DNA from: Cristatella mucedo
Taxonomy: Eukaryota; Bryozoa; Phylactolaemata; Cristatellidae
Assembly: GCA_009760855.2 (NCBI GenBank)
Contig: WPIO01000137.1
Location: forward strand, 186,001 to 250,000
Reading direction: 5' to 3'
DNA: 64,000 bases
Shown: one piece after another, positions 7,020 through 39,411 of the stretch
Numbering within the stretch: position 1 is the first letter of the stretch
Layout: every line of letters starts with the position of its first letter
Notes under the pieces: model-generated
Databases searched by the model: none
Told to the model about the DNA's origin: nothing
What the model saw: the letters and a program-made list of their open reading frames with translations, nothing else
Position numbers and translations under genes: made by a program

Positions 7020-39411
<32,392 letters not shown>

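Follow-up and report, generated by a model that had tools for sequence, protein, structure and literature searches.

The closest precedent for the gene described here is PTPRU, a receptor that has an inactive pseudophosphatase D1 and reportedly binds and protects PTPRK substrates (PMC7320164). Like our gene, PTPRU is a tandem-domain receptor in which altered WPD, phosphotyrosine (pTyr)-loop and P-loop motifs are found in D1 and not just in D2; it differs in carrying WPE and GSRQ, and the available text of that paper describes neither an Asn at the acid position nor a Lys in the Q loop (PMC7320164). A second point of reference is engineered. The PTP1B double mutant D181A/Q262A is an improved substrate trap for laboratory use, the WPD loop of which is closed even without ligand, while slow turnover persists and products are held in the crystals (PMC10267100). 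The D1 analysed here is changed at both of these catalytic positions, the difference being that the engineered residues are Ala in a pocket that is otherwise normal (PMC10267100).

Other phosphatases with altered catalytic motifs also serve for comparison. In PTPN21 (PTPD1) and other WPE phosphatases the general acid is altered and the activity, as given in the accessible parts of two accounts, is low, disputed or none (PMC10901363, PMC2638020). The Glu of these proteins retains a carboxylate, whereas Asn does not. IA2 and IA2 beta have a single PTP domain, unlike the tandem gene studied here, and STYX is a phosphatase of the dual-specificity type without the nucleophilic Cys that our D1 keeps. 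The likeness of IA2 and IA2 beta, which are R8 receptors, is that they are receptor pseudophosphatases, although it is the P-loop that is altered in them, with Ser for Ala (PMC2638020); that of STYX is that it is a natural pseudophosphatase competing with an active phosphatase (PMC10211241).

Here we describe a receptor-type tyrosine phosphatase of the bryozoan Cristatella mucedo, a member of a duplicated family, in which the general acid of D1 and the first Gln of the Q loop are both replaced.

Results

The region analysed, hereafter the window, is a stretch of 64,000 nucleotides (C41:186001-250000, where C41 and similar labels denote contigs) that holds D1 of a tandem-domain gene, the features of which are collected in Table 1. 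The joined D1 model matches Pfam PF00102 with 231 bits over positions 1-233 of 234 (cut-off 20.9), so that chance resemblance is excluded, and the six exons a to f (8357-8421 to 14926-15061) form a single open frame in which every junction is GT-AG, with exon k (7020-7107) joining it in frame upstream. The exons at 7020 and 22988 were placed by pattern scans together with frame, phase and splice sites rather than by BLAST, the former having first been recognised by a scan modelled on a copy of the gene on C196. Among solved structures the window D1 scores best against the tandem domains of LAR, PTPRF, PTPRS and PTPR alpha, and the score for LAR-type tandem domains is 314 bits (in two stretches) as against 165 bits for PTPRU. 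Downstream of D1 lies a D2 (exons within 29238-40942), the model of which, built from located exons that do not include the first ones of the domain, matches PF00102 with 116.5 bits over positions 43-232 of 234 (cut-off 20.9). This D2 is degenerate: its WPD-loop motif is gone, HC has become QC, and the P-loop Arg has become Gln. We call the gene a receptor because of its D1-D2 architecture and its LAR-like match; no transmembrane segment or ectodomain was recognised in the 17 kb upstream, inspected by eye and with Pfam on two short frames.

Table 1. Exons and key codons of the phosphatase gene, in window positions.
Feature	Start	End	Strand	Remarks
Probable juxtamembrane exon, 3' part	1	57	+	ENQFRQYCSDEVSIAERFE; donor GTAAGA, phase 0 into next exon; putative assignment
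D1 exon k	7020	7107	+	pTyr-recognition loop; KNMF at 7080-7091
D1 exon a	8357	8421	+	
D1 exon b	8539	8575	+	
D1 exon c	8693	8790	+	
D1 exon d	11572	11688	+	KKCEKYFP
D1 exon e	11795	11952	+	WPD-loop exon; ends ...VVVHC + AG (split codon); acceptor TAG, donor GTAGGA
Asn codon	11843	11845	+	AAC, general-acid position (GAC in paralogues A and D)
Asp codon	11846	11848	+	GAT, right after Asn (CAA, Gln, in A and D)
D1 exon f	14926	15061	+	P-loop, R-AGVGRTG; initial A completes an Arg codon after catalytic Cys
Lys codon	15053	15055	+	AAG at Q-loop Gln position, MVKT (Gln in Asp-bearing copies examined)
D1 exon g	22988	23024	+	Q loop second half, second Gln kept (EQYLF); 3' end predicted from GTATGAG
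D2 exon	29238	29369	+	
D2 exon	30524	30676	+	Begins GYHHYWPKP; end provisional
D2 WPD-loop exon	31610	31758	+	Degenerate; ...PVVVQC
D2 P-loop exon	38889	39024	+	C-RDGAS-Q; 136 nt, equal in length to D1 exon f
D2 last exon	40871	40942	+	VQYRFIYQVLQAYSEATSVYSDA + stop TAG; end of coding sequence

At the WPD loop, positions 11837-11857 of the forward strand translate as WPNDSVP (TGG CCG AAC GAT TCT GTG CCC). The genome was searched for paralogues (572-Mb assembly, 688 contigs), and the closest is a sister copy at C41:290123-290281, on the same contig and 92% identical, which reads TGG CCA AAC GAT and thus has the same AAC GAT codons as the window copy. The next two paralogues, at C41:73820 (paralogue A) and C25:81411, read WPDQSVP (GAC CAA). 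Because the closest paralogue repeats AAC GAT, a base-call error at the Asn codon is unlikely, and the change from Asp-Gln to Asn-Asp probably occurred before the window and sister copies separated, or was spread by conversion. The two were also considered as haplotype copies of one gene, which was rejected, as they share a contig at a distance of 92 kb and the identity of their flanking non-coding stretches is 75-94%. The preliminary description of this DNA had reported WPNDSVP in a D1 whose frame ran cleanly through the flanking exons, and had put it forward as a natural, substrate-trap-like domain. The domain assignment and frame are confirmed, as is the reading itself, which lies in an open exon spliced in frame, and an error is an unlikely source of it, since a paralogue carries the same codons.

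When the WPD exon was searched against the whole genome, 26 loci matched (E up to 1, near-identical copies on C196, C219 and C25 included), among which the residue at the acid position is Asp in 22, Asn in two, Thr in one (C667) and Glu in one (a LAR-type D2 on C133). Asn is found among these matches only in the window copy and its sister. Four further WPD exons outside the 26 have Asp in three cases (C653) and Gln in one (C77).

The search also brought out variation elsewhere in the loop. A related subgroup reads WKDHSVP or WKDHSIP in six matches, some of them near-identical (L014, L015, L017, L019, L020 and L021; C196, C219 and C25), and L016 (C25:413k) reads WRDQSVP. The WPD-loop Pro is thus Lys or Arg in these copies while the Asp stays, as does the Q-loop Gln wherever the P-loop exon could be read (six copies). 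One WKD copy, L019 (C196:115 kb), has a P-loop exon whose frame seems shifted midway and is a possible pseudogene. Between C196, C219 and C25:1.18-1.20 Mb a number of family exons differ little or not at all, so that haplotigs or recent segmental copies may be present in the assembly.

A second catalytic residue is replaced in the same domain. The segment after the P-loop is MVKT in both WPN copies but MVQ, or something close to it, in copies that have the usual Asp. The lost residue, the first Gln of the Q loop, aligns with the Gln of LAR MVQTE and is one that we take to be Q262 in PTP1B numbering; the second Q-loop Gln is kept in the window copy. Across the 28 domains for which both exons were read, with residues compiled by hand from the exon readings, the acid and Q-loop residues pair as Asp/Gln (22), Asn/Lys (2), Glu/Gln (2), Thr/Gln (1) and Gln/Arg (1). 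Indeed, the Q-loop Gln is retained in 22 of 22 Asp domains, and Lys at this position is confined to the two WPN copies. Outside this set are C219 (near-identical to C196), C196:115k (P-loop exon seemingly frame-broken), C34 (exon stops before the Gln) and C365 (pairing uncertain), together with C77:996k, C77:879k, C332 (two), C550 (two), C665, C37, C55:2542k, C19 and C122:1057k, which had no paired WPD exon read, or were D2-like or unrelated. Loss of the Asp is associated with loss of the Q-loop Gln over the 28 domains (Fisher P = 0.006), a value that overstates the link, the two WPN copies being sisters and hence a single event. A separate joint loss is seen in the C77 copy only (WPQ with MVRT), whereas WPT goes with AVQT in the C667 copy and WPE with MVQS in two LAR-type D2 domains, these having lost the Asp but kept the Gln.

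In full, the C77 member (L066, C77:874963-875184, and L061, C77:876337-876576) reads WPQHGVP, CAGVSTTG, in which the P-loop Arg is lost, and MVRT; judging by these motifs it is a separate, fully degenerate domain. The C667 member (L023 and L058, C667:1682-1685 kb) reads WPTKGVP and retains its Q-loop Gln.

The window and sister D1 domains are identical at 197 of 233 residues. The pTyr loop of the window copy is KNMF, and so not of the KNRY type, whereas the sister and the C196 copy have KNRF. The P-loop of the window D1 has the C-x5-R form, and that of the sister reads HCSAGVGRTG. The residue after the catalytic Cys of the window copy is Arg, from the split codon AG/A, whereas Ser stands there (AG/T or AG/C) in all 19 remaining P-loop exon rows, some of which represent one domain seen from two loci, and additional P-loop exons of the form x-AG-x-GR have Ser as well; Arg also follows the Cys in one D2-like exon (L057, C332:6636 kb, RDGVSR). 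Both KNMF and this Arg are window-only residues, read in a single copy with no second copy confirming them. In exon c of the window copy, moreover, Pro replaces a Leu that is kept in the compared paralogues (C, A and D). The HC-x5-R signature, earlier described as intact, is therefore so in the spacing of its Cys and Arg but not in the residue that follows the Cys.

Exon a has a different pattern of similarity from its neighbours. The protein encoded by exon a of the WPD paralogue L011 (C41:73 kb) is identical to that of the window exon (21/21), whereas the other D1 exons of L011 are 66-78% alike to those of the window copy, which suggests gene conversion at exon a between the C41:73 kb copy and the window copy.

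We then compared coding and non-coding divergence between the window copy and its sister. Six intron and flanking stretches contain 22 indels in 2,654 aligned bases, whereas none occurs in the seven coding exons that the copies share (233 codons, 699 bases), although the intron rate predicts 5.8 for 697 coding bases (Poisson P 0.003). Similarly, D1 has no stop, although 89% of neutral simulations with an equal number of changes gain one. Given this lack of indels and stops, the reading frame was, on the sequence comparison, preserved during some or all of the period since the copies duplicated. A pseudogene, as judged by frame, is unsupported: the frame of D1 is open, with neither indel nor stop. 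Constraint on the protein is less marked. The dN/dS of window against sister is 0.44, compared with 0.21-0.29 for pairs with the two Asp-bearing copies, and replacement changes, though fewer than under neutrality, do not fall significantly short on their own, 7.7% of neutral simulations lying at or below the observed value. When codon changes were polarised with the two Asp-bearing copies as reference (199 codons), 7 silent and 15 replacement changes were assigned to the window copy, 7 and 8 to the sister, and 4 and 8 to neither. Protein constraint thus appears moderate at best and the window copy looks relaxed. Relaxed constraint or early decay is possible, because of the dN/dS of 0.44 and the replacement deficit that is not significant alone.

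Repetitive sequence was noted in and near the gene. About 1.46 kb of intron (window 9867-11328) is missing from the sister; it starts with TGTAACG, ends with CTACA beside a short AT-rich repeat, and looks like a solo LTR. In the same intron, window 8938-9505 holds an extended tandem array of CTGC and then GTCGCTCT repeats, the sister version being much shorter and mixed. Upstream of the window, at C41:183-184 kb (L040), is an element resembling a LINE, in which a reverse-transcriptase frame scores 115.6 bits against PF00078.

Discussion

The losses in D1 together with its kept frame point to a pseudophosphatase receptor whose D1 is dead or slowed by orders of magnitude, a reading that we regard as reasonably probable. 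D1 has lost the general acid, the WPD Asp having become Asn, and the Q-loop Gln that positions the hydrolytic water, now Lys; both changes probably date from the common ancestor of the window copy and its sister, or were spread between the two by conversion. The sequence also shows that the nucleophilic Cys, the P-loop Arg and an open coding frame are retained. By analogy with the PTP1B mutants, turnover by D1 would be absent or slowed by orders of magnitude; after the example of PTPRU, the receptor would most likely engage phosphotyrosine proteins or partner phosphatases, perhaps its active paralogues, in protection, sequestration or scaffolding. The window copy stands further from a working pocket than the sister. 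Indeed, because of the Met in its pTyr loop and the Arg after its Cys, tight binding is less sure in the window copy, and putative tight phosphotyrosine binding is plausibly likelier in the sister. Since D1 has these losses and D2 is without the WPD motif, HC and C-x5-R, neither domain retains the full catalytic set.

These results support the naturally impaired D1 envisaged in the preliminary description, with WPN joined by the Q-loop Lys, so that Asp and Gln are both lost. Its suggestion of a substrate trap or phosphotyrosine binder fares less evenly: it gains from the second shared loss, and in the window copy it is weakened by KNMF, the Arg after the Cys, the Leu to Pro change in exon c and the Asp one residue on. 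In a sharper form of the pseudophosphatase reading, D1 would be a strict natural substrate trap, releasing its substrate slowly, serving as a decoy and kept by selection. The joint loss at both positions altered in the improved laboratory trap favours it. So does the fact that the window copy retains its Cys, P-loop Arg and second Q-loop Gln and the sister its KNRF and HCSAGVGRTG, and the pair resembles, by analogy, a natural counterpart of PTP1B D181A/Q262A. Laboratory traps use Ala, however, whereas Asn and Lys stand here, and in the accessible account the off-rate of PTP1B D181A/Q262A for a JAK3 peptide is no slower than that of wild type, being slower only in the triple mutant with C215A (PMC10267100). 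We therefore consider a strict trap possible but doubtful. Somewhat less likely still is that the receptor lineage independently evolved the two-position change of the improved laboratory traps and so holds phosphotyrosine and could compete with the Asp-bearing paralogues on the same contig.

Ordinary decay, in which a redundant duplicate sheds catalytic and other residues with no new role on its way to becoming a pseudogene, would account for replacement codon changes outnumbering silent ones, 15 to 7, on the window branch and for the private changes of the window copy in the pTyr loop, the P-loop and exon c. It fits less well with a D1 free of indels and stops, with GT-AG splice sites, and with D2 exons and a terminal stop that remain readable, and we think it rather unlikely. 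Alternatively, the general acid may have been relocated, WPDQ having become WPND, so that an Asp one residue along leaves D1 working, perhaps slowly or with altered specificity. The codons GAC CAA in A and D and AAC GAT in the window and sister copies do place an Asp exactly one position on, and migrated catalytic residues are known in pseudokinases, e.g. POMK (PMC10211241), but the residue at the same position in PTP1B, F182, contacts the substrate ring in a simulation of D181A (PMC4035576). The simultaneous loss of the Q-loop Gln would moreover be unexpected if turnover were retained, and relocation seems improbable. Finally, A-to-I RNA editing, in which an A in the transcript is read as G, might restore the Asp, since AAC is one such step from an Asp codon in both window and sister, but AAG cannot return to the Q-loop Gln in this way, and we judge editing very improbable.

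Returning to the pseudophosphatase reading, dead or impaired PTP domains are already known, and it is the combination of WPN with a Q-loop Lys that is a new variant. This combination in one D1 was not found in the available text of the literature searched (PMC7320164, PMC2638020, PMC10901363, PMC4035576, PMC10267100, PMC10211241), nor did the literature searches bring up a relevant paper on D181N or on tyrosine phosphatases with a WPN motif. Tandem-domain receptor phosphatases with a dead D1 are little described, PTPRU being the worked example that we found. With a pair of paralogues that shares two catalytic losses beside relatives that have the normal residues, one could ask directly whether substrate traps are built by evolution, and also whether catalytic residues are lost in a set order, the acid and the Q-loop Gln going first and the pocket residues later.
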